Shown here in pieces: positions 10,596 through 49,324 of a stretch of 64,000 nt of DNA. The notes below the pieces were generated by a model. It worked only from the letters and a program-made list of their open reading frames with translations. It searched no databases and was not told where the DNA came from. The DNA comes from a virus: IMG/VR virus record IMGVR_UViG_3300035682_001186, positions 1 to 64,000 of that record; one strand, written 5' to 3'. Each line of letters starts with the position of its first letter. The stretch's first letter is position 1. The position numbers and the translations under genes are program-made.

Positions 10596-11348
10596 CTAGT
10601 TCATGTTTGTAAATTTAGGAGTCATGAAAACCCATGTCATGGTACTAGGTCTAGACTCACAACATAGTAACATTTTATCACTATCACATAAATCAAAAAG
10701 AATGTCAATATAAGGATTTTTAGCACTTTGAGATATAGGATAAACATCATGAGTATCTTTAAATCTTTCTATAATTAAATCTGTAGTCCCAGATATATTA
10801 CAATCATGACTTTCTACAATAACTGTAGATTTAATTAACTCTGGAATCAAATCAAAATCTAATAAAACTCGCTCATGACCTTCTACATCCATTATAATAA
10901 AAGGTCGTTCGCTTTTTTCTAAATAACTACGTATATTTTCAACAGAACAATCTGTATTAAATTGTACATTGTTTATATTATTTTTATTGGCATTTTCTCT
11001 ACAAATAGAGATTGCCGTAGAGTTAATATCAAATAATACACATAATGTATTAGGAAGATTTCTTGCTATTCCCAATCCATAATATCCTTCCGCACACCCA
11101 ATATTGAGAACAACATCAAAATTTTTAACTTTTGTTAACTGATCAATAACAGGATATAATTCATTTTCATAAATTCCTAATAACTTACCAGCCGTATCAC
11201 CATCACCCCAACTAAATTTACGAACAATAGACATTCCAGTAAAGGGACCTTGATAAACTTTACCATTAGTTCTTTCGTAAATAATATCTAACAACTCAGT
11301 CTTACGTTGCCAACCCCATTGAATATAATTGTTTAATGCTTCGCTCAT
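10596..11348 (-). CDS. SAM-dependent methyltransferase of the glycan cassette
   Basis: 250-residue class I methyltransferase. The SAM-binding loop is VLNIGCAEGYYGLGIAR (residues ~78-94), followed by an acidic end of strand 2 (LFDIN) and IIMDVEGHE (residues ~150-158), resembling FkbM-type enzymes that methylate sugar hydroxyls. The start is the ATG at 11348, which overlaps the TGA of the upstream glycosyltransferase by 4 nt (ATGA); an earlier in-frame start is less likely. It is the last gene of the cassette. A sugar or glycan substrate is inferred from neighbours. Confidence 0.78.
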   Translation of the reverse strand: MSEALNNYIQWGWQRKTELLDIIYERTNGKVYQGPFTGMSIVRKFSWGDGDTAGKLLGIYENELYPVIDQLTKVKNFDVVLNIGCAEGYYGLGIARNLPNTLCVLFDINSTAISICRENANKNNINNVQFNTDCSVENIRSYLEKSERPFIIMDVEGHERVLLDFDLIPELIKSTVIVESHDCNISGTTDLIIERFKDTHDVYPISQSAKNPYIDILFDLCDSDKMLLCCESRPSTMTWVFMTPKFTNMN

Positions 11349-12226
11349 TGTACTAACTCCACCCAATATTTAATTACATTAGACCAATCATATAGTTTGG
11401 CATGTTTTTGTGTTTCCAGACATTTTTTACGATATTCTTCTGGATTATCTTTATAATATGTTAATAATTGTTCTGTTTCATTTAAGAAATGTTTTTCATC
11501 TATTGATACTGTATGACCAGTATTACCTGATTTAGATAACCATATTCCCACTGGTGTACTAATTACTAATTTACCAGCAGCACTGGCTTCTAATGCTGGT
11601 AAACCTGCTCCCTCTTCTGTACTAGCAATAATTACAGCATCAACTGTTTTATAATAACCTTGCATAGTTACATAATTGTTATGATATGTTACCGCTGGTT
11701 TAAGATCAAGATTAGTTCTTTGTGAAACTTCTTCAATTAACCAATAACGCTTGATATCTTTATGAATAGCATTATCACTAATAGTTCCGGAATAACCAAT
11801 AGTTTTTAATTCTATACTTGGCTCACTAACAAATGATTCATAGTTAATACCAATTGGAACTACCATTGGAACTCTATCAATATTAAGTAATATACTTTGT
11901 TCAAGTAACCAATCACTAACTACACCATAATTATGTAAACGTTTTCTATTATCTGGAGAAAATATATTTAAATGATGTAAGTCACGAACTGCATGTGCTA
12001 CTACTATACATTTTTCTGGGACAATACCAAATTTGTCAATCAATAAAGAAATACCATAAGGATTAGCAACAAAGTAATCAATATTGTCGCTTAATTCCTG
12101 AATTTCTTGTTTATTATAATTTATATTCCATGATAGAACAGTAGCGTTGACTTCATGTTCAAATAGATACTTAGTTAATTCATAATGAATTACACCGAAA
12201 GCCCATTCAGGCTCGGTGTAAAACAC
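11345..12226 (-). CDS. Glycosyltransferase, GT-B fold (GT4-like)
   Basis: 293-residue glycosyltransferase. The C-terminal nucleotide-sugar domain carries an EX7E motif (E-GAGLPAL-E, residues ~208-216) followed by ASAAGKLVISTPVGIW, typical of retaining GT4 enzymes. The N-terminal acceptor domain is short (VVAHAVRDLHHL). It starts with GTG at 12226, whose first base is the last base of the preceding stop (TAGTG), so translation is probably coupled. Cytoplasmic, no membrane segment. Donor and acceptor unknown. Confidence 0.83.
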   Translation of the reverse strand: MFYTEPEWAFGVIHYELTKYLFEHEVNATVLSWNINYNKQEIQELSDNIDYFVANPYGISLLIDKFGIVPEKCIVVAHAVRDLHHLNIFSPDNRKRLHNYGVVSDWLLEQSILLNIDRVPMVVPIGINYESFVSEPSIELKTIGYSGTISDNAIHKDIKRYWLIEEVSQRTNLDLKPAVTYHNNYVTMQGYYKTVDAVIIASTEEGAGLPALEASAAGKLVISTPVGIWLSKSGNTGHTVSIDEKHFLNETEQLLTYYKDNPEEYRKKCLETQKHAKLYDWSNVIKYWVELVQ

Positions 12227-13386
12227 TATTCTTTTTTTTTACTTTCATCTACTCTGAGATGTTCAAGATGTGTAGGATATGCTTTGTATAACCAATCAAG
12301 ATTTTCTCTTTCTGGATGATCTTGATACCAACCTTTTCCTTCATGAACATCTAATACCATTTGAAAATATTCTTCATACATTGGTGCAACTTTATCTAGT
12401 GTAAAGTTCTCGGCATAATCACGACAATTACGTGGATCAATTTTATCAATGTTTTTGGCTGCCCAAACAAATTGATCAAATGTACGACAACGATATCCAG
12501 TTACACCATGAATATTGTTTTCAACAAATGAACCCCAATCACATGTGATTGTTGGTGTTCCAGACATAAGTAATTCAACTTGAACTCCACCAAACGGTTC
12601 TATATATTGACTAGCAATAAAAGCACCTTTGGCATTAGACATTAAATCTTTACGTTTTTCAACGTCAGCATATCCAACAAATTCTACATGTGGCGGGAAT
12701 GTACGACCCTCAGGATTTTGACCCGCAATAATCAATTTAGCACCAATTTCACCTGCTACTTGAACTGCAATATCAACACCTTTGCCACTATATACTCGAC
12801 CTAAGAATAAGAAGTAATCTTGTTTCTTTTCTTTAAATTCAAAGTCATCTGGATCAAAGTAATTAGGTATAACTACATCATACCAATCTTGCTTACATGT
12901 ACCAACTGCATCAAGACCATAATAGGCATGATAGATAGCATAACTTTCAAAAATCTTCCAACGTGCCCAATGACCGCCTGCATATCCAATACCTGGTTCT
13001 ACACAAATCAAATCTGGATGAGCATCACATACTGGTCTTGTACCAGAACCCCAAAATGGTAAAATAAAATCATTTGGTTGTTTACGTTTACCCACTTCTT
13101 CAATGGCATTTTTAAAGAATGTTTGATAAGCATGATCACCCATATCATACGTGAAGAAGTTTGTTCTCCAATCATAATCACCATAAGCGATTTTAAAATC
13201 TTCATTAGTTAGTACTGACACATGTTCAGTACATATTAAATCACTATCTTCATGACCATAGTGAATAACTGTATGACCACGTTCAGTCATCATTTTACCA
13301 AACTTAACTACTTTTTGTGTATAGGCACAAGCGTTAAATTCTTTACTACTTACCGTGTGCGGTAATCCTAAGATATGAAAGCGCAT
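12226..13386 (-). CDS. Glycosyltransferase, GT-B fold (GT4)
   Basis: 386-residue GT-B enzyme. The C-terminal domain has [19 protein letters not shown] (residues ~196-214), then a clear EX7E motif in [18 protein letters not shown]. The N-terminal domain begins [11 protein letters not shown] with the usual GxH-like loop. A C-terminal Glu/Lys tail is present. It abuts the kinase/nucleotidyltransferase gene with no spacer (TAA then ATG). Transfers an unknown sugar; cassette context implies virion or fibre glycan synthesis (inference). Confidence 0.85.
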
Positions 13387-14190
13387 TTATTTTAGTCCCA
13401 TTTTTTTACGAATTTGTGTACCACTAATACTAGTAATGTTTTCATCAAAATATTCTTCACCACTAGTATATCCAACACCACGACCCCAACCAATATGTAC
13501 AATATTTGGAACAACTTGTATTTCATATTGACCCTGATATAATGGATCTAAATCTTTACGAATAAAGTTTTTAACTTGAGTAACTGCAAATGGATTACTA
13601 TCATTCCAACCCTGTACATCACGAATTTGAATTACTACTTGACCAGATTTTTCTAACAATCTTTCAAATAAGGCACGATGACCTTCATGCCATGGTTGCC
13701 AACGACCTAACATTTGTACTGTTTCTTTTTTCCAATCAAATACTGGTCTACGTTGATTATTTAAAATTTTCAAAGCAATATATTCACACCATTTGTTGGC
13801 ATCTTGTTCAGTAACTCTAAAATCATAAATTTCAGGTTGAATAAAAACTTTGTTAGTATCTTCAAACCGACCTTGTTCAATAGTATCTACCCAAATAGTC
13901 CAATCAGCTTTAAAGTTATTACGCATTTCTACTAATGGTGCAACGAAATCACAAATAACATAATCGGCAGTTGACTTTTCAGCCAATTCTGCCATACGTA
14001 AACTTTGACGAATACGACCTGTTTCAGTGAAATCCCAATCGTTAAACTTTTTTCTAACATCATCAGCATTAAACCATTCTACAGTAATGCCCATGCCTTC
14101 ATATTTAATATCCTGAAGATAATTCTTGAGTGATATTGCCAATGTAGTTTTACCTGCACCAGGCAATCCCATAATTAATATCTTTTTCAT
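13387..14190 (-). CDS. APS-kinase-like / HxGH nucleotidylyltransferase fusion
   Basis: 267-residue two-domain enzyme. The N-terminal half is an adenylylsulfate-kinase-like P-loop kinase: Walker A GLPGAGKT (residues 8-15), FNADDVRKKF in place of DGDNxR, then IRQSLRMAELAE and VICDFVAPLVEMR, as in CysC. The C-terminal half (residues ~155-267) has GRWQPWHEGH (HxGH, residues ~160-169) and SISGTQIR near the end, the two motifs of adenylyl/cytidylyltransferases and, loosely, of ATP sulfurylase. The domain order is that of PAPS synthetase. With two sulfotransferase genes nearby, PAPS supply is an attractive role, but a sugar-kinase/NDP-sugar role cannot be excluded. Ribosome site AAGG. Confidence 0.75.
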   Translation of the reverse strand: MKKILIMGLPGAGKTTLAISLKNYLQDIKYEGMGITVEWFNADDVRKKFNDWDFTETGRIRQSLRMAELAEKSTADYVICDFVAPLVEMRNNFKADWTIWVDTIEQGRFEDTNKVFIQPEIYDFRVTEQDANKWCEYIALKILNNQRRPVFDWKKETVQMLGRWQPWHEGHRALFERLLEKSGQVVIQIRDVQGWNDSNPFAVTQVKNFIRKDLDPLYQGQYEIQVVPNIVHIGWGRGVGYTSGEEYFDENITSISGTQIRKKMGLK

Positions 14191-14204
14191 GTTAGACCTT
14201 TTGA

Positions 14205-14426
14205 TTATTCTGATGGTTGATCTGTTTGTTTTGCGGCGTCAATAGCGGTCAATTGTTGATTAGTTTGATCAACAATAACTTGTCTTAATGGCCAGACACC
14301 AGTTTCAGTTGGTAATTTACCAAGTGCATTAACAACTGCATTAATTTGTTCAAAATTCAATACTAATTGAATAATAACTGGGTCTGGTTGTTGTGATACT
14401 TCTGGTTGTTGTGTTTGTTCTGTCAT
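14205..14426 (-). CDS. Small conserved phage protein
   Basis: 73 residues: a Gln/Pro-rich N-terminus, then IIQLVLNFEQINAVVNALGKLPTETGVWPLRQVIVDQTNQQL, a helical pattern (VNxVxNALGxLP) seen in small hypothetical proteins of many tailed phages, often near tail genes. No function is known to me. It sits between a sulfotransferase and the kinase gene with gaps of 9 and 14 nt, so it is part of the same transcript. Ribosome site AAGGAAAC precedes the ATG. Confidence 0.65.
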   Translation of the reverse strand: MTEQTQQPEVSQQPDPVIIQLVLNFEQINAVVNALGKLPTETGVWPLRQVIVDQTNQQLTAIDAAKQTDQPSE

Positions 14427-14435
14427 GATGTTTCC

Positions 14436-15335
14436 TTAAAGTTGTTTGTTTAATCTAGGTAACGATTTTGTTACAGTTGATTGTTGTCTGACGATATTAT
14501 TTATATCGCTTGAATTGATCCAATTTAATTGTTTACGTAAATCATCAAACCCATCCTTCCAAAAAGTAGATGATGAATATTGATGCCATAAATCATTTGG
14601 TAAAATTGGTCTACGTTGTTTAAATTCTACACGCTTTCTGACTTTATGTAATCCTTCAATCTTGACACCAACATCAAATTCATCATATGAATCTTCTACA
14701 TTATTAAAATCATGTTCAAACCATGATTCTCCAAGAAAATTATAAATCTTCTTCATAACTATTAATGGATTTTTAACCAAATCATCATATTCAACATAAC
14801 AAATTTGATCACGTTCATTACAAAATAATGATTGTTTAACATTTGCTAATGGCCCAGCAACATATCCAGTAAAATTAGGTAAATTACCCATTAACATATT
14901 AGTTCGTTCATATACAGATAAATTCGGTTGATGATGATATAATGCTTTAACTGTATATGGATTCTTAGCATTCAATTGTTCAAAACTATCTAAAATCCAT
15001 GGTATTTCTCTAATACATATAATCATTTTAAAATCTGGATATAAATCTTTTAATAATGATGTGGCTCCAGACCAACCACGATTCGTATTAAAACAAACTT
15101 CATTACTTTCATTATAAAATGTATCAAATATATTTCTAATAATTTCTTTACGTTTTTCAATTGTAATAGTAGTATCTATTCCAACAGATGTATTAGTAGA
15201 ATCTATAATTGCAGTTGCATATCCTTGTATTACATCACTGATACCAGCAGTAAATCTAGGATTTTGTTTTAAAATTGCACTTAATAGTGTTGTTCCACTA
15301 CGAGGCAATCCAGATATGAAATTATATTTTCTCAT
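14436..15335 (-). CDS. Sulfotransferase family protein 1
   Basis: 299-residue PAPS-dependent sulfotransferase-like protein. The 5'-phosphosulfate loop is GLPRSGTTLL (residues 9-18). The 3'-phosphate region is MIICIREIPWILDSF (residues ~103-117), and YVEYDDLVKNPLIVMKKIYNFLG (~185-207) is the characteristic family segment. The family moves sulfate from PAPS to a hydroxyl or amino group of a glycan or other acceptor. It shares one base with the stop of the carbamoyltransferase (TAATG), so translation is coupled. Substrate inferred to be a glycan from the neighbours. Confidence 0.84.
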   Translation of the reverse strand: MRKYNFISGLPRSGTTLLSAILKQNPRFTAGISDVIQGYATAIIDSTNTSVGIDTTITIEKRKEIIRNIFDTFYNESNEVCFNTNRGWSGATSLLKDLYPDFKMIICIREIPWILDSFEQLNAKNPYTVKALYHHQPNLSVYERTNMLMGNLPNFTGYVAGPLANVKQSLFCNERDQICYVEYDDLVKNPLIVMKKIYNFLGESWFEHDFNNVEDSYDEFDVGVKIEGLHKVRKRVEFKQRRPILPNDLWHQYSSSTFWKDGFDDLRKQLNWINSSDINNIVRQQSTVTKSLPRLNKQL

Positions 15336-17029
15336 TATTTACTAATTAGTTTTCCAATTTCTGGCAAATACAAATAATTAATATCACTATTCAGAATAGT
15401 TACAAAAGCATCAACTAAACTTTCTACTAATGGTTGACCAGCTAAATTAAAACTTGTATTCATTACCATTGGAATTTGTGTTCTATTATAAAATGCTTCA
15501 ATCAAACGATAGTAATGTAAATTTTGTGCTTCAGTAACAGTTTGAACACGACATGTATTATCTACATGACATACGGCAGGAATTTCATTTACTTTATCTG
15601 GCCAAACATTAACTGCATACATCATAAATGGACTTGATTTCATTCCAGCCATATCAAACCATGTTGAAGCATGTTCTTCCATAACACTACCAGCAAATGG
15701 TCTAAACCATTCTCTACGTTTAACTTGATTAACAAAATCTTTACCATCTACTCTACGTGGATCAAATAATATTGAACGATTACCTAATGCTCTTGGTCCA
15801 GCTTCCGCGGCCCCTTGAAATAAAGCAACAATATTACCATCATCAATCAATTGTGCTACAGTATCATATGTTACATCTGATACTTTAAGATTTGGTACTT
15901 GTTGTAATAAATTATCTAACTGATCATAGTTTGGATGTACACCAAGATATACACTAGTTAACTCTCTTAATTGTACTTCATTTGAGTGATTATGCCAAGC
16001 ATATTTGGCTAAACCAATAGCAGTTCCACCATCATGTGCAATTGGATCAATATAGAAATTAATATCGGGAAAATGTTTAACATACTTATAATTGGCCACA
16101 CAGTTTAAACCAAATCCACCACTAATAATAATATTACGTTCACCAGTAATATCAATTGCCTTTTCAATAAGAGCAATCATTTGTTCTTCAGTTTGTCTTT
16201 GAATCTTATATGCCAAATTCTTATCAATATCACGACATAATGAAAAATCATTATGCCATTCTTTTGGATCATTAAATCGTTTTAAGTATGGATTATGATT
16301 CTCGTCAATATGTGCACCAGCAGGATATCTAGGAATCAATAAGTTCTTATTACCTTTTCCATTAATAAAGAAATCTGGAATATCTACATCTTCTGTACCA
16401 TATGGACTTAGACCCATAGTTTTACCAGCTTCAATAAATCCAAAACCAAGATAATCTGATACGGCCTCATAGGCTTTAGTAATGGTTACAGTATTATCAA
16501 ACTCTTGTATACCATTATCATAGTACATGGCATTACCATCGCTATAACGCTTGTATACAGCGTTAAACTCATGTGGATATGAACAGTAGTAAATTGATTC
16601 AGTTTCGTATCCAGATGCAATTGGACCATTTTCTCCAATTTGTTCTTGATGTACTGAACCAGCACCATCTACAATTACGGCTGCAGCAGTATCAAAACCA
16701 CTACTATAAAAACTGGCACTAGCATGACCCAAATGATGTAAATGTCCAAGATTTGTTACTTTAACATTTGGACAACTTTTTCTAACCAATGCTGTATATG
16801 GATCTTCTCCAGTCCATGGTAATTGTGGTAATTGTGAATTAGTACCACCAATAATTAACTCATCAACTACATGATTATTCAATACATGAACAATAGCCTT
16901 AAATGGATTACCATCATATTTACTTCTAGATAGTCGTTCTTCTTCTGTATAGTATACTAATTCACCATCAACTACTAATGCCGCTGATCCATTATGTCCT
17001 GGATTAATTGCTAAAATTGTATATCCCAT
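15335..17029 (-). CDS. Carbamoyltransferase, NodU/CmcH family
   Basis: Transfers a carbamoyl group from carbamoyl phosphate (via carbamoyl-AMP) to a hydroxyl, usually of a sugar. The 564-residue length matches the family. The N-terminal Kae1-like domain has LAINPGHNGSAALVVDG (residues ~5-21), metal-binding HLHHLGHASASFYSSGF (~97-113) and VDGAGS. An ISGGFGLNCVANYKY segment is at ~300. The C-terminal YrdC-like domain has AAEAGPRALGNRSIL (~407) and NTSFNLAGQPLV (~523). All key histidines and the GPRALGNRS motif are present, so it should be active. One-base overlaps on both sides place it inside the cassette operon. Confidence 0.92.
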   Translation of the reverse strand: MGYTILAINPGHNGSAALVVDGELVYYTEEERLSRSKYDGNPFKAIVHVLNNHVVDELIIGGTNSQLPQLPWTGEDPYTALVRKSCPNVKVTNLGHLHHLGHASASFYSSGFDTAAAVIVDGAGSVHQEQIGENGPIASGYETESIYYCSYPHEFNAVYKRYSDGNAMYYDNGIQEFDNTVTITKAYEAVSDYLGFGFIEAGKTMGLSPYGTEDVDIPDFFINGKGNKNLLIPRYPAGAHIDENHNPYLKRFNDPKEWHNDFSLCRDIDKNLAYKIQRQTEEQMIALIEKAIDITGERNIIISGGFGLNCVANYKYVKHFPDINFYIDPIAHDGGTAIGLAKYAWHNHSNEVQLRELTSVYLGVHPNYDQLDNLLQQVPNLKVSDVTYDTVAQLIDDGNIVALFQGAAEAGPRALGNRSILFDPRRVDGKDFVNQVKRREWFRPFAGSVMEEHASTWFDMAGMKSSPFMMYAVNVWPDKVNEIPAVCHVDNTCRVQTVTEAQNLHYYRLIEAFYNRTQIPMVMNTSFNLAGQPLVESLVDAFVTILNSDINYLYLPEIGKLISK

Positions 17030-17961
17030 TATCGTACCTTTTTCTCAATATCTGCAACAATAGTATTAAACATATCGTCTAGTTCTTTTGTTGTAAAATT
17101 AATTGTTCCTTCATTTAATCTATTACTTAAAGTGGCATCTAATCCGGCAATACGTATTGGTGTATATTTTCTAACTTGTTGTGTTTCAATGATTTTAAAA
17201 TAATCTGGATAACTAGTATTGATTGGAAATGTACTACCAAAAATTACAGTACCTGGAGTTCCAACTGCACGAGCCATATGTTGACCTACACTATCACATC
17301 CAATAAAATAATCGGCTTCTTGAACCAATGCACCCCATTGTCTAAGATCACATGTATATTTTTGTGATACTGTATCTTGTTTCAATTGAAAATCTGGTTC
17401 ACCAAAGAAAATAGTATTATATCTCATGGCAATTTTCTTAACAAGATAGAGATAATCTTTCTGACTTAAACTACGTGATTCTTCATCAAATACACCTTGA
17501 CGATTATCTATTTTGGCACCGCGACCAAATGGTTGAAAGATTACTGTTTTTTGTTTTTTCTGTGCAGCTTTCAAATCTTCAAGTGTATTCTTTGCTACCA
17601 TAACTTCTTGTTGATTAAATTTAAGAACTGGTATACCTAAATCACTATGATCTTTAGTATTATTAATTTCTCTATCAAATCCTTCTACTAAACTAATCTC
17701 TTGTCTAAAATAAGCTGGACAACGATATGGTTCTGGTGTAATAATTTGATCTGCATTTTTAATTACATTGTCAAATACACCTTTAGTATCAATTCCATAT
17801 GTTCTGTCTTGTAGTTCTGGAATACCCCAATATAAGAAATCCCATGCGGCTACCATAACTGCCCAATCAACATCTGGATTTAATTTACCAAATTTAATAA
17901 GTGCTGGAATTGCTGCAATTGCACGACCAGCACCACCATCAATCCAAAATATCTTTTTCAT
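17029..17961 (-). CDS. GT9-like glycosyltransferase (heptosyltransferase family)
   Basis: 310-residue GT-B enzyme like ADP-heptose:LPS heptosyltransferases. The N-terminal loop is DGGAGRAIAAIPAL (residues 8-21), in the place of the GxGD loop. The donor-binding domain carries FQPFGRGAK and ADYFIGCDSVGQHMARAVGTPGTVIFG (~215-241), the D-S-x-x-x-H-x-A signature of GT9. A ribosome site AAGAGAG precedes the ATG at 17961 and a 63-nt gap separates it from the upstream gene. The donor need not be heptose. Confidence 0.82.
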   Translation of the reverse strand: MKKIFWIDGGAGRAIAAIPALIKFGKLNPDVDWAVMVAAWDFLYWGIPELQDRTYGIDTKGVFDNVIKNADQIITPEPYRCPAYFRQEISLVEGFDREINNTKDHSDLGIPVLKFNQQEVMVAKNTLEDLKAAQKKQKTVIFQPFGRGAKIDNRQGVFDEESRSLSQKDYLYLVKKIAMRYNTIFFGEPDFQLKQDTVSQKYTCDLRQWGALVQEADYFIGCDSVGQHMARAVGTPGTVIFGSTFPINTSYPDYFKIIETQQVRKYTPIRIAGLDATLSNRLNEGTINFTTKELDDMFNTIVADIEKKVR

Positions 17962-18024
17962 TGTTTAACTCTCTTATAATAAAACTTACTATTATTTACA
18001 TCATAACAATGACATTCAAATATT

Positions 18025-19416
18025 TTATTTGTACCAAAACCAAACATTAGATTGTGTAAATCTGATCTCATTAGTAATATTATTCTTTTGTCTAAACTCA
18101 TTAACTGCTTGATTTACTGCTGGTAAATTCCAATCATGACCAGCAAATATACCACCTGTTTTGACTTTATCCCAATAATTATCTAAATCTCTAACTACTG
18201 CTGAATAACTATGATCACCATCAATAAAGATATAATCTAAACTTTGATCTGGTATATAGGATGCTGCCGTAGTAGCATCCATTTCTAATAATTCTATTTT
18301 ATCCATATATGGATTTAATAGATTCATAGCATATTCACGCCATTGATCTACCATTGATTGTGTAACTGGTCCCCACCAATCCATATATGGTGTCCAACTA
18401 TCAATAGCATATACTTTACTAATCTCTGGTGCCAAATCAAAGAAATGTCTAAGAGTATATCCTTTACAAACACCTAATTCACATCCGATAAGATCAGTAC
18501 CTAACTCTTTGATATATGATAGTAAACCATATGCCGATACGTCTTTCAATGATACTATACTATTTCCATCTCTAACTGATAATAAAGTTTTAATCATTTC
18601 AGTTATTGTACTATTTTCTAATAAATATTTTTGAACAATTGGTTGAGGTTGTCCACCTACTAGTAACAGATTTGATAAATCTGATCCCCATTTTTCAATG
18701 AATCTATCAAAATATATTTTGTCTCTTTGTTTAGTTTCATCAGAGGTTTCACCACTGTCCCATAATGATTTACCTTGAAAATGTAATAGATATGATTGTG
18801 TAGTATATTTGACATTGAATCCTAATTGAATTGCACGAATTCTATAATCAACATCTTCACCACCACCTACACCAAAACTTTCATCAAATAATCCTATCTT
18901 AGAATATATCTCATAAGGTAATCTAAATGCATAAAATGGCATTAATAATCTTTCATAAAATCCAGCTGGATTAAGTTGTTTATGTCGTCTAACAATATCA
19001 CTTAAAGTATAAAAATTATTATCAAATTGATTCATTGACATTGAATTTGTCAATGTTAATTGATCTGTAGTATATTCATGTGTTTGATTACAACTAGATA
19101 TAACAATAACATTATTATGTTGAGTTAATGGTTGTAACCAATTTTCAGTAAAAACAATATCATTGTTTAGAATAATAAGATCCTTACCATCAGATATACT
19201 AATAATATCATTGATATTTTTGGCAAAACTTTTTGGTTGTTCATTGACAATTACAGTAACATTTGGTCTTTGAGTAGTAACTATCTGATCATTATCAATC
19301 AAGTAAAATACATCATTTGATTTTAATTTAGTAAATCTAAAAAAACTTGAAATAGCCAAATCAGTATAATGATCAGACTTTTTTGTAGTGATCATTAAAA
19401 ATACTATTGGTCTCAT
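18025..19416 (-). CDS. GT2-like glycosyltransferase fused to a methyltransferase
   Basis: 463-residue fusion. Residues 1-~225 form a GT-A (family 2) glycosyltransferase: LIILNNDIVFTENWL (NND as the metal-binding DxD, ~75-90) and FGVGGGEDVDYRIRAIQLG (~180-198, the ED catalytic motif). Residues ~275-463 form a class I methyltransferase: LIGCELGVCKGYTLRHFF, VYAIDSWTPY, LDYIFIDGDHSYSAVVRDL and GGIFAGHDW, matching the Methyltransf_24 type. One protein would therefore add and methylate a sugar. The start overlaps the stop of the upstream sulfotransferase by 4 nt (ATGA). Confidence 0.83.
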   Translation of the reverse strand: MRPIVFLMITTKKSDHYTDLAISSFFRFTKLKSNDVFYLIDNDQIVTTQRPNVTVIVNEQPKSFAKNINDIISISDGKDLIILNNDIVFTENWLQPLTQHNNVIVISSCNQTHEYTTDQLTLTNSMSMNQFDNNFYTLSDIVRRHKQLNPAGFYERLLMPFYAFRLPYEIYSKIGLFDESFGVGGGEDVDYRIRAIQLGFNVKYTTQSYLLHFQGKSLWDSGETSDETKQRDKIYFDRFIEKWGSDLSNLLLVGGQPQPIVQKYLLENSTITEMIKTLLSVRDGNSIVSLKDVSAYGLLSYIKELGTDLIGCELGVCKGYTLRHFFDLAPEISKVYAIDSWTPYMDWWGPVTQSMVDQWREYAMNLLNPYMDKIELLEMDATTAASYIPDQSLDYIFIDGDHSYSAVVRDLDNYWDKVKTGGIFAGHDWNLPAVNQAVNEFRQKNNITNEIRFTQSNVWFWYK

Positions 19417-20213
19417 GATTTATTCCAAAAATCCAATTTCATATCTGTATATAATTTTGTCAATTCTTTACCAATGACTAATTCTGGTTCTGGACTCACT
19501 CGTTCCATTACTGATCTGACATCATGTAATCCATTTAAACCACCATGATAATCATCATTTTCTAACATTGATTGCATATTATTAATATCAACTTGATATG
19601 TTTCTATACCAATAAATTCACAAATTCTATTCATTGTATATTGACTGTTATTAACAATATCATTATATTCAACAATACACATATCAATGTCAAATGAATT
19701 GTATCCCATTCTGAAACTTGTATATGGATGATTGATATATTTTTCCCACAATATACGACAACGATTTTTGTTATTGATTGCTAAATTATTGTCAATTAAA
19801 TCTTGATCTACAAATGTAATTTTATCTGAATTTTTATTAATCAACAAGATGTAAGATGATAGAATTTCTGGTATACTTCTAGCCGTACAGATGATTTTTG
19901 GTTTTGATCCTAATGCATTAATCATTAACTTACCGTGTCTAGGCCATAATCTATTTTTATCAATGATAACAGGTTTGTCTATATGATGATAGGCACCTGC
20001 GATCATACCATTTATAATATTTCCGTATTGATCTGGATGTCTGTTGACATATGCAGCTGAAATATTATTCCAATTATTGTCAATGATTTCTATTAAATCA
20101 ATAACTGGACTAGTAGTACTGGAATGAATTAATGGATGTTGATTTAATAACGATCCTAGAACAGAACTTCCTGATCTGGGAATTCCGGACATCATAATAA
20201 ATTGTTTATTCAT
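19413..20213 (-). CDS. Sulfotransferase family protein 2
   Basis: 266-residue PAPS-dependent sulfotransferase-like protein, divergent from the one at 14436-15335. The phosphosulfate loop is SGIPRSGSSVLGSLL (residues 9-23). KIICTARSIPEILSSYI (~106-122) is the 3'-phosphate region, and CIVEYNDIVNNSQYTMNRICEFIG (~180-203) is the family C-terminal segment. ATGA overlaps on both sides place it in the operon. Two different sulfotransferases imply at least two sulfation sites or acceptors (inference). Confidence 0.82.
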   Translation of the reverse strand: MNKQFIMMSGIPRSGSSVLGSLLNQHPLIHSSTTSPVIDLIEIIDNNWNNISAAYVNRHPDQYGNIINGMIAGAYHHIDKPVIIDKNRLWPRHGKLMINALGSKPKIICTARSIPEILSSYILLINKNSDKITFVDQDLIDNNLAINNKNRCRILWEKYINHPYTSFRMGYNSFDIDMCIVEYNDIVNNSQYTMNRICEFIGIETYQVDINNMQSMLENDDYHGGLNGLHDVRSVMERVSPEPELVIGKELTKLYTDMKLDFWNKS

Positions 20214-20917
20214 AATTGTTTTTTCATTACTGGTAAGATTGGTTTAGTAATGTGAACTGTTTTATTATACCATTTTTCAAAGTCACCTGTAAACTTATAT
20301 GGACCAATATGATTACAAGTGATTTCTTGATCTAACCAAATTTTAAATCCACCATCTTTAAGTTTATTAAATGCATGAATATCTTCACTAATCATTTGAT
20401 CTACACCGGCGACATTTTGAATCACAACATCAAATATCATTCTACGTTCTTTGTCGTCTTTTGGATCCATATATGATTTACTTACGTCCCATAAATGTTG
20501 CATGGCAACTTTACTAAATTTTACAAACCCAGTACCAAGACCATCAACTTCAATTAATTTAGTTATTGGATCTCGTGGTTTCTTCTGTAATTGTCTAACA
20601 ACATATTCTTCTTTATCACCTTTTTTGCGATAGGTACCACCTACTACATCAACTGGATAATCTAATAGTTTGAAAAATTGTTCTGGTTGCCATTCAATGT
20701 CACTATCAATCCAAACTAAATCATCTACATTAGATTCTAAGGCAACATGAATAGTATCATTACGTGCACGTTGAAGTAATGCATCAAAACTTACCCACAT
20801 AGGTATAATTTCAATATCACGTTTAATAGCCATTTTAATAGTGTTCATTAAAGCATTGACATACCAAACATCAATTCTACCATCATAACATGGTGTGCCA
20901 ATCATTACTTTACGCAT
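20210..20917 (-). CDS. Glycosyltransferase, GT-A fold
   Basis: 235-residue GT-A type transferase of a kind common in T4-like phages: IGTPCYDGRIDVWYVNALM (N-terminal strand), then DDLVWIDSDIEWQPEQF (residues ~67-83, DSD as the metal-binding motif), GLGTGFVKFSK, and SEDIHAFNKLKDGGFKIWLD with a downstream CNHIG (catalytic acid and metal His). Single compact domain without membrane segments. It overlaps the upstream gene by 13 nt and the downstream gene by 4 nt. Confidence 0.82.
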   Translation of the reverse strand: MRKVMIGTPCYDGRIDVWYVNALMNTIKMAIKRDIEIIPMWVSFDALLQRARNDTIHVALESNVDDLVWIDSDIEWQPEQFFKLLDYPVDVVGGTYRKKGDKEEYVVRQLQKKPRDPITKLIEVDGLGTGFVKFSKVAMQHLWDVSKSYMDPKDDKERRMIFDVVIQNVAGVDQMISEDIHAFNKLKDGGFKIWLDQEITCNHIGPYKFTGDFEKWYNKTVHITKPILPVMKKQL

Positions 20918-21801
20918 AATTCACCAAAAAATTTATTCCATTCTGTTTTACGAATATTCCATGAATATCTTAGATTGAACCAATCACTTTGTTCTAATAG
21001 ACCTTCACTGGAATAATTATTTATAGCGTCATTTAGAGCTTGAGAATAATTGTGTGTGAGTTCTTGTCTATCATCACTATAGTCTACATATGTGGCATAG
21101 TCATCACACGTTTCGGATAATGCCCCATAATTAGTTGTTACTATACGACAACCAGCTGCGCCGGCTTCAATAGCGGATAAACAACTTGTTTCTTCATATA
21201 TACTTGGATAGGCTAATATATGAGATTGTTGAAGTGCATATCTAACTGCCTGATTCATACCAAAACCTTTATAGATAACATTTTTCATTGTACGACAACG
21301 ATGAAACAATTGTTCTATATGTGAATTAGTGGCATATCCTTTACCATAGATAATATTGGATGAATAGACTGTCAATTCAACATCCGATCTGTTGAGTAGT
21401 TGAAAAGCGTCTAGTAATACTTCTAATCCACGATTAGGCATACTGGTATAAATCAATCTTATTTTATCAGTTGGTTTATATTTAAATTCAATATCTTCAA
21501 TGGCATTTCTGATAACTAGATTTTTAGATTCATCTACTGGAAATCTATTTTGAAATTGATTTTTTTGCCATTCAGATACATAAACAAATTTATCTATATT
21601 ATCGGTAAAATTTTTATATAACATACCGATAATATTTTGTTGATCGTATGATAGATGTTGCCAAACAATGTTTGCACGATTTGGATCTATTAGACCTTCA
21701 TAACAAACAGAAACAATCAAATTGATCTGATCAGACCAATCTGTTCCTGTATATTTAATTAAGTTATTGTAAAGTAATTCTGTTCCGCCGATAGGTTTCA
21801 T
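20905..21801 (-). CDS. Glycosyltransferase, GT-B fold (GT4), first gene of cassette
   Basis: 298-residue GT4-like protein: KPIGGTELLYNNLIKY at the N-terminus, IYTSMPNRGLEVLLDAFQLL (~117-136, start of the donor domain), YPSIYEETSCLSAIEAGAAGC with an EX7E motif (E-TSCLSAI-E, ~208-216). It is the first gene of the 10.6-21.8 kb cassette. No good Shine-Dalgarno site precedes the ATG. Instead the start codon lies in the right arm of an 8-bp hairpin (21795-21821), so translation may be controlled. A weak late-type box is at 21853-21860. Confidence 0.82.
   Translation of the reverse strand: MKPIGGTELLYNNLIKYTGTDWSDQINLIVSVCYEGLIDPNRANIVWQHLSYDQQNIIGMLYKNFTDNIDKFVYVSEWQKNQFQNRFPVDESKNLVIRNAIEDIEFKYKPTDKIRLIYTSMPNRGLEVLLDAFQLLNRSDVELTVYSSNIIYGKGYATNSHIEQLFHRCRTMKNVIYKGFGMNQAVRYALQQSHILAYPSIYEETSCLSAIEAGAAGCRIVTTNYGALSETCDDYATYVDYSDDRQELTHNYSQALNDAINNYSSEGLLEQSDWFNLRYSWNIRKTEWNKFFGELCVK

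Positions 21802-31735: not shown

Positions 31736-31736
<1 letters not shown>
30546..31736 (-). CDS. LamG/concanavalin-like fibre protein 3
   Basis: 396-residue paralogue with the same plan as the 434-residue neighbour: KIVTNGLVLYLDAANIKSYG, a ~150-residue CBM-like insertion (NWTVSFYVRKVSG, GEWVRVQSSAVS), a LamG domain (YSFEVWVYPRTDTSSN, WQCYCTTYNGTTLSFYRNGVLIG) and the C-terminus TKFYNTALTATEVSQNFNALRGRYGI. Its start overlaps the stop of the 3584-residue collagen-like fibre by one base (TAATG), so the giant fibre and the three LamG proteins form one translationally coupled operon and may assemble together. Confidence 0.82.
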
Positions 31737-42490
<10,754 letters not shown>

Positions 42491-42663: not shown

Positions 42664-45600
42664 TTATTTTATCTTTCTTATTTCATCAATTTGTTTTTGT
42701 TGTTCCTTAACTGCTTCAATTAAGATAGCAATTAATGGCAAATACGAAACTGATAATCCATTTTCATTTTTTGATACCAATTCTGGTAAAATTTTAGCAA
42801 CTTCTTGAGCAATTACTCCATAAGATTTCTTACCCCATTCTTTCCAATTAAAAGAAACTCCAGTAATTTGATTCAAAATAGTTAACGGACTAACAATATT
42901 TTTAATATTTTCTTTCAATGTTCCATCGCTAGTAGAGTTGACTTCTACAGCGTTTAGTTGACCAGTACTAGGATTAAATGTTAATTTACTACTACTTACA
43001 TATATCGTAGCTAAGCTACCAGTAAAAATATTTGAAAGAGCAGGATAAAATGTATTATTATCAACAGTATCAGTAATTATTGATACCCCAGTACCAGTCG
43101 CTCCAGTTAATCCAGTAGCACCAGTTGACCCAATACTACCAACACCACCAGATAATCCAGTGGCACCTGTAGCGCCAGTAAATCCAGTTGATCCATCAAA
43201 TCCAGTAGAACCGTCAAATCCAGTAGCACCCGTACTTCCTATAAATCCAGTAGCCCCCTGTAATCCAGTAGCTCCCTGTAATCCAGTAACACCAGTAGCA
43301 CCTGTTGATCCAGTAAATCCAGTTGATCCATCAAAACCAGTAGCGCCGTCAAATCCAGTTGATCCAGTAAATCCGGTAGCTCCATCAAAACCAGTAGCAC
43401 CAGTAGATCCAATATCACCTTGAACTCCAGTGGCACCGGTAGATCCGTCTAATCCAGTAGATCCTGTGGCTCCAGTAAATCCAGTAGCACCTATGTCGCC
43501 CTGAACTCCAGTAGCACCAGTGGCTCCATCTAATCCAGTAGCACCAATATCACCCTGTAATCCAGTAGCACCAGTAGATCCGTCTAATCCGGTAGCACCT
43601 GTGGCTCCATCTAATCCAGTAGCGCCAGTGGCTCCGTCAAAACCAGTGGCACCTATATCACCCTGAACTCCAGTAGCACCAATATCACCCTGTAATCCAG
43701 TAGCACCAGTGGCTCCGTCAAATCCAGTAGCACCAATATCACCCTGTAATCCAGTAGCACCAGTGGCTCCGTCAAATCCAATTGGTCCAGTGGCCCCATC
43801 AAATCCAGTAGCACCTATGTCACCTTGAATTCCAGTAGCTCCAGTGGCTCCGTCAAATCCGGTAGCACCTATGTCTCCTTGAATTCCAGTAGCGCCAGTT
43901 GATCCATCTAATCCAGTAGCACCAGTAGCGCCATCAAATCCAGTGGCACCTATGTCGCCCTGTAATCCAGTAGCACCTGTGGCTCCGTCAAAACCAGTTG
44001 CCCCAATATCACCTTGAATTCCGGTTGCGCCAGTGGCTCCATCAAAACCAGTAGCGCCAGTGGCACCATCTAATCCAGTAGCACCAGTGGCTCCATCAAA
44101 ACCAGTAGCACCTATATCACCTTGAACTCCAGTTGCGCCAGTTGATCCATCTAGTCCCGTGGCTCCAGTAGAACCAATAAATCCAGTAGCACCTATGTCA
44201 CCTTGAACGCCAGTTGCTCCTGTGGCGCCTGTATATCCAGTAGCACCTGTATATCCAGTTGGACCCACAATAGTTCCAACATTGACCCAAAGTGTACCAT
44301 CATAAACCCATAAATTACCAGTAGCTTGATCTATAACTCCATTTCCAAGTACTGCAGATGGAAATGCAGCATTAAGTGTTGTTTGTGGATTATTAGGAGG
44401 ATCAACGTTTACATTTGGTACTGATCCTATTATGGAAACTGACGTACCTGCTACTCCAGTAGCACCAATATCACCTTGAATTCCAGTGGCACCAGTGGCA
44501 CCGTAACCAGTAGCACCTGTGGCTCCAGTTGATCCATCTAGTCCTGTTGCGCCAGTGGATCCTTCAAAACCAGTAGATCCAGTGGCTCCGCTTCCTGTAG
44601 CACCGATGAATCCAGTGGCTCCGATAAATCCAGTGGCTCCATCTAATCCAGTAGCGCCAGTAAATCCAGTAGCACCTGTACTTCCAGTGGCTCCATCTAA
44701 TCCAGTGGCACCCGTAGAACCAGTAAATCCAGTGGCTCCGTCAAATCCAGTAGCACCTGTACTACCAGTAGCACCTGTAAATCCAGTACTTCCTGTAAAT
44801 CCGGTACTTCCGGTAAATCCAGTACTTCCGGTAAATCCAGTTGATCCAGTAGCACCTGTGGCTCCAGTAGCACCTCTGAATCCAGTTGCACCAGTTGATC
44901 CAGCAGTACCACCACCTCCAGCACCCCAATATAAATTACCTAATCCGTCAGTACTGACTACTAGTCCACTAGCACCACCAGTAATAACTACATTCCCAAT
45001 ATCTCCTAAATTGGCACGAGTATATACTACCAATTGATTTGCCGTAGCAATATTACTACTAGAAATATTTGATGTAACATTACTAGAATCAATATTAGTA
45101 ATGTTTAATGTACTAGTCTCAACATCAAATATAAAATTACTACTACCATCTAATCCGCTTGGTATACTTAAATCAGTCCAACTAGTTCCATTTACACCAC
45201 TGATAATTACGCCGTCTGTTCCAACTATATAATATTCACCACTACCATATATACTATCAATTAAATTACTAGTTGTTCCAGTACTACTAGTAGACCATGA
45301 TGTTGCACCATTGTTACTAGTGATTTGAATTCCATTATCGCCAGCTGATACCAATGTAGGTATAGTTGATACAGTTGCCAACGTAATTGTATTAAGATTT
45401 TCAACAGTTCCACTAATTGATGATGTCCATGTTATACCATCAGAACTGACAATTACTGTACCATTATTTCCAGTTGCAATATAATTGTCACCATCAAATA
45501 CCACGCTATTTAAATTATCAACAACTCCACCATCTTGGATAATCCAATCTATTGCGTCTTCACTTAATAATATTGTACCAGCATTACCAACTACAACATA

Positions 45601-46167
45601 TATACCATTGTCTACATCATAAGCAATACCACGTAAATTTTCTAATACTCCAGTAGCCTGTAAAGTCCAAGTAATAGCATTTAAACTAGTTAATATTGTT
45701 CCATTTTCACCAACCGCAACATATAATCCAGTAATATCAGTATAATATACTCGTAATAAATTTTCTGTTGTTCCGCTTGTTTGTACTGTCCATGTAGTGG
45801 CAATATTACTACTTGTGATAATAGTACCATTATCTCCAACTGCAATAAATCCTAATGGTGTTGGAGTTACTGAATTTATTGGTTGATTAACTGGACTAGT
45901 TTGATTACTGTAATTTATTCCATCTGTACTGTAAAAATATCGTAATGGTGTACCAAATATTACCCATGTACCGCTATTATAAGCAATTGTATCTAGATTA
46001 TTTGTGGCCGCAAATTGAACTGCGCCTGGTGGTGGAGCCGCAGTTCCACCGGATCCTAAACTATATAGTTGAGTAAAGTTTTCATTAATCTTTTCAAACG
46101 CAAGTCTTAGAGGATCGCCATTACCATCGTTTGACGAAGCTCCAATGTTAATAATTTGTTGTGCCAT
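42664..46167 (-). CDS. Collagen-like tail fibre with Asp-box repeats and S74 chaperone
   Basis: 1167-residue fibre. The N-terminus [34 protein letters not shown] is a common virion-attachment module. Residues ~50-340 hold Asp-box-like repeats ([21 protein letters not shown]) alternating with [18 protein letters not shown] strands. Collagen-like Gly-X-Thr segments follow at ~44.48-44.91 kb and ~43.09-44.26 kb, split by a domain with [19 protein letters not shown] and [14 protein letters not shown]. The C-terminus is an S74 autoprocessing chaperone ([38 protein letters not shown]) with a terminal coiled coil. Transcribed from the box at 46188-46195 and ended by a hairpin terminator. Confidence 0.88.
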
Positions 46168-48535: not shown

Positions 48536-49324
48536 ATGAACCAATTTAACAATACAAAATATACACGATGGTACTATGGTATCATCCAAAAACGAGCCAT
48601 TTTAGATAAAGATTCTCGTGGTGAAATACATCATATTATCCCACGTAGTATGGGTGGCAATGATTCACCTGAAAATCTTGTCAAATTAACTGGACATGAT
48701 CACGCTTGGTGTCATTGGCTCTTGACTAAAATGACTACTGGATCAGCCAAAGTATCAATGATATATGCCTTTAATATGATGGGTGTCTCTGGAGAACATA
48801 TGGAACGTCAGTCATCATATGCTATTGTCAGAGCGTATGAGAAGAACAGAATAGAGTGGAGTAAGAATCATAGTGAAACTATGAGTGAACAATTTATAAA
48901 TGGTCGAGAAATTTGGAACAAAGGTCGTAAAGAAGATCGTCCTGAAGTTTTAGCCAGAGTAAAAGAAGCGGCTCAGAATAGACCAAAATTAACAGATGAA
49001 AAATTAAAAGAAAAAGTAAGAAAGTCAGTTGACACAATGAAGAAAAATGGTACGGATAAACGATCTCAAGAAACAAGAGATAAGCAACGAGATTCTATGA
49101 TAGGGTTAGTTCGTGGGCCGATGAATGACGTTCATAAGAATAAGATTGCCATATCTTGTCGTAAGCCTAAATCAGAAGGACATGGTGACGCTGTTGCTGC
49201 GGCTAATCTAGGTGTTGTTAGTATTAATAGAAACGATGTCGAGAAAAAAGTCAAACAAGATACACTTCAATCTTGGATAGAACAAGGATGGCAACTTGGT
49301 GGTAGACCACGTAAGAAAAAATAG
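48536..49324 (+). CDS. HNH homing endonuclease
   Basis: 262-residue free-standing HNH nuclease. The motif is EIHHIIPRSMGGNDSPENLVKLTGHDHAWCHWLL (residues ~28-61): the HH pair, GG-N, Pro-x-Asn-Leu and the last His of the HNH fold are intact. The C-terminal part is Lys/Arg-rich with helical DNA-binding repeats (KLTDEKLKEKVRKSVDTMKKNG, SQETRDKQRDSMIGLVRGP), resembling NUMOD-type modules. It lies on the strand opposite to the capsid genes, just downstream of gp23, and ends at a bidirectional terminator. Such genes cut intron- or intergene-less alleles to spread; its target here is unknown. Confidence 0.85.
   Translation: MNQFNNTKYTRWYYGIIQKRAILDKDSRGEIHHIIPRSMGGNDSPENLVKLTGHDHAWCHWLLTKMTTGSAKVSMIYAFNMMGVSGEHMERQSSYAIVRAYEKNRIEWSKNHSETMSEQFINGREIWNKGRKEDRPEVLARVKEAAQNRPKLTDEKLKEKVRKSVDTMKKNGTDKRSQETRDKQRDSMIGLVRGPMNDVHKNKIAISCRKPKSEGHGDAVAAANLGVVSINRNDVEKKVKQDTLQSWIEQGWQLGGRPRKKK

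Follow-up and report, generated by a model that had tools for sequence, protein, structure and literature searches.

Positions 10596–21801 of a 64,000-nucleotide stretch of viral DNA (hereafter, the window) carry, on the minus strand, a cassette of genes predicted to build and decorate a glycan. The window makes up the opening 64 kb of IMG/VR record IMGVR_UViG_3300035682_001186, which is linear and 109,270 bp long. We interpret the cassette as a "host recognition cluster"-type glycan island, adjacent to tail-fiber genes, that makes a heptose-type glycan carrying carbamoyl, sulfate, and methyl groups, and we assign this overall interpretation a probability of about 0.6. An initial annotation, made from the sequence alone, had described a glycan-building and -decorating cassette here, and the finding of 3'-phosphoadenosine 5'-phosphosulfate (PAPS)-type sulfotransferases and a NodU-type carbamoyltransferase in the tail-fiber region bears that description out. 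A link to heptose and a separation from DNA carbamoylation are new beyond it.

A mosaic cassette around a GT9-carbamoyltransferase core

ORF calling placed twelve minus-strand genes and one 73-amino-acid (aa) ORF in the cassette (gene names as in Table 1). Neighboring genes mostly abut or share 1–4 nt, as had been reported initially, and the two gaps lie at 14191–14435 (containing the 73-aa ORF) and 17962–18024. Profile searches against Pfam and PHROGs returned the families that the annotation had named: two sulfotransferases, a NodU-type carbamoyltransferase (CMT), two methyltransferase domains, and six glycosyltransferase domains. Pfam cut-offs were passed by Methyltransf_31, Glycos_transf_1 (three times), APS_kinase, Sulfotransfer_3 (twice), Carbam_trans_N/C, Glyco_transf_9, and Methyltransf_24, and barely so by Glycos_transf_2 (23.5 versus 23.3 bits). 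The glycosyltransferase domains fall into three families (three GT4, two GT2-like, and one GT9) rather than the "at least four" types first proposed. Many viral contigs keep the region at roughly 40–95% protein identity, so the cassette is not a chance reading. Because no strongly hydrophobic span was found in any cassette protein, glycan assembly is probably cytosolic.

A scan of viral contigs with CMT yielded 28 loci; L045 and L067, which hold the full GT9-CMT pair, were added from a scan with the kinase fusion described below, and 29 contigs were tabulated. GT9 lies directly upstream of CMT in 27 of the 29, among them three (L003, L004, and L019) that are 98–100% identical to the window, and the order is retained at about 50–95% identity across relatives. 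In the cyanophages S-CAM3 and P-SSM2, a profile-confirmed GT9 also stands immediately before the carbamoyltransferase, with the heptose gene order. The gene after CMT is a sulfotransferase in 15 contigs, the set to which the window belongs, and a gmhB-like gene followed by hldE2 in 8; where the contig is long enough, hldE1, a cupin gene, and an hldD-like epimerase gene come next. Heptose identities were checked for L024 only, in which NCBIfam matches to heptose-1,7-bisphosphate phosphatase (131 bits), rfaE_dom_II (102), rfaE_dom_I (122), and ADP-heptose 6-epimerase (218) were clear best hits, yet under the full-length curated cut-offs. Some loci bridge the two arrangements. L205 has a sulfotransferase and the heptose set together with GT9-CMT-gmhB, L099 combines a sulfotransferase, the kinase fusion, and heptose genes, and L045 and L067 have the order GT9-CMT-ST-GT2c-gmhB-GT4c-APSK, with an additional GT2-MT gene in L067. 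Since the pair precedes either heptose genes or a sulfotransferase, and bridging loci hold both, a heptose-type product is suggested. A cyanophage "phosphoheptose isomerase" beside the carbamoyltransferase was not claimed as GmhA; the L018 homologue matches an EcbF-like capsule phosphatase instead.

ST2, GT4a, GT4b, MT1, and GT2-MT are kept in fewer relatives than GT9-CMT. In L007, an unrelated FkbM methyltransferase occupies the GT2-MT slot, and L010 has a similar-looking protein there by inspection. The cassette is a mosaic around a constant GT9-carbamoyltransferase core, because relatives hold this pair while the sulfotransferases, the kinase fusion, GT4a/b, and the methyltransferases come and go. 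The initial annotation had proposed following the cassette as a block through relatives, and this synteny rules out inheritance as one block. It had also named loss of the sulfate/carbamoyl genes in close relatives, the rest staying unchanged, as evidence against its view; the sulfate genes are indeed variable, but the carbamoyl gene is constant.

Carbamoylation, sulfation, and the kinase-NadM fusion

CMT has the NodU/CmcH/TobZ architecture, a Kae1-like N domain with the HHxxHA metal motif joined to a YrdC-like C domain. It matches PF02543 and PF16861 as well as TobZ, GdmN, and further carbamoyltransferase structures, and it carries HHLGHA at residues 98–103 and GPRALGNR. Modified cytosine is frequent in T4-like phages, which counts for the view that CMT (and the glycosyltransferases) hypermodify phage DNA against restriction in the manner of the 5-hydroxymethylcytosine (5hmC) carbamoyltransferase. 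One phage Nol-like carbamoyltransferase of the same superfamily has been proven to act on 5hmC DNA in a MetaGPA study, which gave three distinguishing positions, TobZ W408, G421, and R423 (PMC8670742). Their equivalents are V/C/T in the DNA enzyme and F/G/R in the window CMT (F or Y, G, and R in close relatives), and thus agree with enzymes of the sugar/antibiotic type rather than with the DNA enzymes. In the same study, DNA-type genes co-occurred with thymidylate synthase, whereas the contigs in which a carbamoyltransferase adjoined group 1 glycosyltransferases were unmodified (PMC8670742). We found no thymidylate-synthase-family gene (PF00303; thymidylate synthase or dCMP hydroxymethylase) anywhere in the 109 kb, and in two relatives such a gene lies far from the cassette. 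Because of the F/G/R residues and the absence of this gene family from the record, the sequence argues for a sugar rather than 5hmC DNA as the CMT substrate, and we consider DNA hypermodification very improbable.

A carbamoylated sugar of the kind proposed is known from Pseudomonas, in which carbamoylation of a heptose in the lipopolysaccharide (LPS) core has been ascribed to WapO (PMC8005017). Like the window enzyme, WapO works beside heptosyltransferases; it differs in belonging to a chromosomal LPS locus, and the likeness proposed here is one of function. A second, truncated NodU-like carbamoyltransferase, ~28% identical to CMT over the matched stretch, lies at the end of the record, at 108389–109270 (L033 4389–5270). 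Before it, at L033 573–4261, two proteins with radical-SAM-like CxxxCxxC motifs (by eye) stand around a 294-aa ORF.

Both sulfotransferases, ST1 and ST2, contain the PAPS-binding elements, a 5'-phosphosulfate-binding (5'-PSB) loop PRSG[ST] and a 3'-phosphate-binding (3'-PB) motif R-x7-S. PRSG and the motif R and S are invariant across an alignment of 35 sequences (ST1, ST2, and 33 homologues). ST1 and ST2 behave as distinct orthologous groups. The closest solved structures are tyrosylprotein sulfotransferases, matches too weak to inform on the acceptor. A literature search turned up no publication describing phage sulfotransferases in clusters of this kind, although such work may exist.

The initial annotation likened the combination of carbamoyltransferase, sulfotransferase, and sulfate-activation enzyme to the rhizobial Nod-factor set (NodU, NodH, NodPQ, with NoeE as a further member considered here). 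This resemblance is an analogy, in chemistry only. The NodU family and the pairing of sulfotransferase and carbamoyltransferase chemistry on a glycan are common to both, but the NodPQ part of the comparison fell away: a search with positive controls of 12 phage records (this one and 11 others), which may be incomplete, found neither a CysD/NodP-type gene (PF01507) nor an ATP sulfurylase (PF01747), and the second domain of the kinase fusion is NadM-like rather than CysN or ATP sulfurylase. Likeness to Nod sulfotransferases is at most marginal (NoeE, 19.5 bits).

The fusion, APSK, does include the adenosine 5'-phosphosulfate (APS)-kinase-like domain announced initially (about residues 1–145), and its partner proved to be a NadM/nicotinamide mononucleotide (NMN) adenylyltransferase-like nucleotidyltransferase (about residues 155–267). 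The AlphaFold model is confident and has two domains (mean pLDDT 91). In the first, the invariant P-loop, D43, R46, F54, and R59 of the APS kinase fold are present, the APS-kinase profile alignment ends near residue 95, and a DTN motif lies in the lid region; the second has the GRFQPxHxGH and ISxTxxR motifs and the NadM fold. Profile searches with the fusion returned APS kinases (8e-12) and NMN adenylyltransferase (6e-8). In Foldseek, the whole chain was nearest to human PAPS synthetase 1 (PAPSS1) and APS kinases, and the C-terminal domain alone placed NadM and archaeal NMN adenylyltransferases on top (E about 1e-3), with ATP sulfurylases, of the same superfamily, lower. The fusion thus shares with bifunctional PAPS synthetases and sulfate adenylyltransferase (SAT)-APS kinases the APS kinase fold, and with PAPSS1 the kinase-then-nucleotidyltransferase order; unlike them, its second domain is NadM-like, only about 115 aa long, and by profile no ATP sulfurylase.

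Relatives of the fusion occur in at least 559 viral loci, and sulfotransferase neighborhoods were counted, as raw counts within the fetched flank, for the best 80 of these. A sulfotransferase is present at 24 of the 80, almost always ≤5 kb upstream, and absent from the flank in 56; at 8 loci a sulfotransferase on the same strand runs up to or into the start of the kinase gene. Among the fusion-bearing records tested, four (G012, G013, G015, and G016) gave no significant Sulfotransfer_3 match. In SAR11 chromosomes, the two domains are adjacent separate genes in most of 80 fetched loci, and mostly so in contigs L139–L202, with neighbors that look, by inspection only, like dimethylsulfoniopropionate (DMSP) demethylase, methylene-tetrahydrofolate reductase, and SBP56, pointing to DMSP/one-carbon metabolism. 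For SAR11, absence of sat and cysDNHIJ has been reported, and several strains are listed as having cysC and cysQ (PMC5069961); we infer that the cysC of these strains corresponds to the kinase of the fusion relatives.

From its domains, the fusion would serve either PAPS supply or nucleotide salvage. It may be a compact PAPS synthetase unrecognized so far, in which the NadM-type domain replaces ATP sulfurylase and the kinase makes PAPS for the adjacent sulfotransferases, but we regard this as unlikely. That it is unrelated to sulfation, being a NAD/nucleotide-salvage enzyme with a NadR-like division of labor that sits in the cassette by chance, is a real possibility at less than even odds; this reading bears on a single cassette component and does not conflict with the glycan-island interpretation. 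Such a role is consistent with the NadM-like C-terminal domain (by profile and fold), with the 56 loci and four records in which no sulfotransferase accompanies the fusion, and with a NADAR gene that overlaps or adjoins the fusion in a Casjensviridae (Stenotrophomonas) phage. It fits poorly with an N-terminal domain nearest in sequence and fold to APS kinases, not ribosylnicotinamide kinase, and with the 24 loci that have a sulfotransferase, including the 8 in which it abuts or overlaps the kinase gene.

Other neighbors of the fusion were also seen. By sequence inspection, iscU- and iscA-like genes flank or adjoin it in L040, L041, L042, L043, and L075. A DUF2061 gene is close to it in 14 loci, and in some loci the fusion precedes such a gene. 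In G001 (L119 12109–12960), a deaminase-like gene follows the fusion and a thymidylate synthase is near, the glycan cassette being elsewhere in G001.

Candidate product, acceptor, and competing explanations

Taken together, the encoded enzymes and the gene order in relatives point most strongly to a heptose-type glycan that is O-carbamoylated, sulfated, and methylated. Soluble cytosolic phage glycosyltransferases would build a short glycan, to which GT9 would add a sugar, most likely heptose, drawn from host ADP-heptose in this phage and from phage-made ADP-heptose in relatives. The NodU-type enzyme would then O-carbamoylate that sugar, the two PAPS-dependent sulfotransferases would sulfate the glycan, and two S-adenosylmethionine (SAM) methyltransferases would cap it. 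The acceptors would most likely be late virion proteins, tail-fiber or collagen-like, encoded by neighboring genes, or else a host LPS-type glycan. The result may be an altered surface, negatively charged or masked, with effects on adsorption, superinfection, or fiber stability.

Several points weigh against this interpretation. For GT9, the Pfam hit is weak and short (23.9 bits against a cut-off of 22, over only about 46 residues), the nearest NCBIfam models, RfaQ/heptosyltransferase III, match weakly, and sequence cannot separate heptose from other donors. A search of the 109-kb record showed no heptose-synthesis gene, so heptose in this phage is deduced from relatives. The record itself is a metagenomic contig and incomplete. 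Finally, the authors of a pelagimyophage study prefer host O-chain modification as the role of glycosyltransferases of the same cluster (PMC7029224).

Applied to the cassette, their preference would mean late changes to the LPS core or O-chain on the host surface that keep progeny from re-adsorbing to debris and competitors from superinfecting, with virion proteins left untouched. In its favor, GT9 and ADP-heptose genes typically go with the LPS inner core, and the carbamoylated Pseudomonas heptose is an LPS sugar (PMC8005017). Three features speak against such a role, none decisively: the cassette lies within the late structural run and shares a strand with the fiber genes, it is without flippase, polymerase, or ligase, and one masking step needs fewer than two sulfotransferases and several glycosyltransferases. 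We therefore hold host-surface modification to be doubtful. The cassette could also be functionless stuffer DNA under decay, as suspected for LPS genes of large cyanophages (PMC3037559), and its gene content does differ among relatives. Yet every frame is open, the genes are tightly packed, catalytic motifs are preserved in distant relatives, and the GT9-CMT order has survived at the identities given above, so that decay is hardly credible.

Within the glycan-island interpretation, we lean toward virion fibers rather than a host glycan as the acceptor, because the cassette is co-located and on a common strand with late fiber genes. Direct heptosylation of proteins is known for TibC, a WaaC-like GT-B enzyme (PMC4358343). 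Two collagen-like proteins with almost no proline are encoded nearby: a 3584-aa virion protein (31736–42490) with Thr at Y in 550 of 652 triplets in runs (84%), and a 1167-aa fiber (42664–46167) with Thr at Y in 113 of 183 such triplets. The strict Gly-X-Thr repeat has 381 matches in this record and 0 in the 17 other phage records tested; G001 and G002 have Pro/Gln-rich collagen-like proteins in its place. As an obligate acceptor the Gly-X-Thr collagen was attractive, but it is not supported as a general one because relatives with the same cassette core are without the strict repeat.

Genomic setting and cassette genes

Since its major head protein best matches those of jumbo T4-related phages such as Phosso, 2.275.O, and PA5oct (65–67%), the record probably comes from a larger genome, that of a T4-related and probably jumbo phage. 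The late structural setting described initially was confirmed on both sides of the cassette. One flank has S74-like tail-fiber and virion proteins at 24–31 kb (virion/tail-fiber genes overall at 22–46 kb) and, further on, the major head protein, head protease, and portal at 49–56 kb; the other, at 4–10 kb, has a nudix gene, a gp3-like sheath stabilizer, and a head-tail adaptor. A gene resembling a homing endonuclease (48536–49324) adjoins the major head protein gene. Glycosyltransferases near tail fibers are common in phages.

A variable glycosyltransferase-bearing island between tail-fiber and neck genes is the arrangement of T4-like host recognition clusters, and the cassette has the same location in cyanophage S-CAM3. 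The cluster of pelagi- and cyanomyophages resembles the window in this position, in its glycosyltransferases, and in its high variability, and rfaE-type genes are listed for it too; the main text of that paper names no carbamoyltransferase or sulfotransferase, whereas the window has two sulfotransferases, a carbamoyltransferase, and the kinase-NadM fusion (PMC7029224). The "Nol-like carbamoyltransferase" LPS cluster of S-CAM3 and P-SSM2 has GT9 right before the carbamoyltransferase in the same neighborhood. It differs in encoding heptose synthesis and, over the stretch read, in lacking a sulfotransferase of this family; in the window the situation is reversed, with sulfotransferases present and no heptose genes found.

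Identities to G001 of 76% for the major capsid protein and 70% for CMT gave no support to the idea that the cassette had moved horizontally with respect to the head genes. A megablast against phage records gave no match. A scan for the T4 late-promoter motif TATAAATA was uninformative (count below chance), and scans for sigma-70 promoters (count not above chance) and terminators (11 found versus 6.3 expected) were not used as evidence.

Table 1. Genes of the minus-strand cassette, in order from the first cassette gene
Gene	Predicted product	Positions	Strand	Supporting matches
GT4c	GT4-type glycosyltransferase, first cassette gene	20905..21801	-	Glycos_transf_1 1.6e-13; phrog_2170 5.5e-32
GT2c	GT2/GT-A-like glycosyltransferase, weak assignment	20210..20917	-	phrog_1574 4e-22; GT2 Pfam E 0.07, below cut-off
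ST2	PAPS-type sulfotransferase	19413..20213	-	Sulfotransfer_3 6e-11; GIPRSGS loop, R112/S120
GT2-MT	GT2-like domain + class I methyltransferase fusion	18025..19416	-	Methyltransf_24 1.3e-16; Glycos_transf_2 23.5 bits
GT9	Heptosyltransferase-family glycosyltransferase	17029..17961	-	PF01075 23.9 bits, cut-off 22
CMT	NodU/TobZ-type O-carbamoyltransferase	15335..17029	-	Carbam_trans_C 4e-59; phrog_1601 1.5e-155
ST1	PAPS-type sulfotransferase	14436..15335	-	Sulfotransfer_3 4e-15; GLPRSGT loop, R109/S117
73-aa ORF		14205..14426	-	76% identity in L005; no PHROG match
APSK	APS-kinase-fold + NadM-like nucleotidyltransferase fusion	13387..14190	-	APS_kinase 1.6e-9
GT4b	GT4-type glycosyltransferase	12226..13386	-	Glycos_transf_1 8.7e-14; phrog_3408 6e-202
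GT4a	GT4-type glycosyltransferase	11345..12226	-	Glyco_trans_1_4 1.8e-9; phrog_18799 1.2e-48
MT1	Class I SAM methyltransferase, last cassette gene	10596..11366	-	Methyltransf_31 5.1e-9

The island is real and functional-looking, a variant of an already known host recognition cluster with unusual chemistry. Together, the GT9-CMT pair, the swap between heptose and sulfotransferase genes, and the residue test for DNA carbamoylation lead to a testable product, a carbamoylated, sulfated heptose-type glycan. The kinase-NadM fusion is the most original point and a target for biochemistry, with relatives in >550 viral loci and in SAR11 genomes. If it were a compact PAPS synthetase, the adjacent SAR11 gene pair would supply PAPS to cells reported to be without sat and cysDNHIJ.

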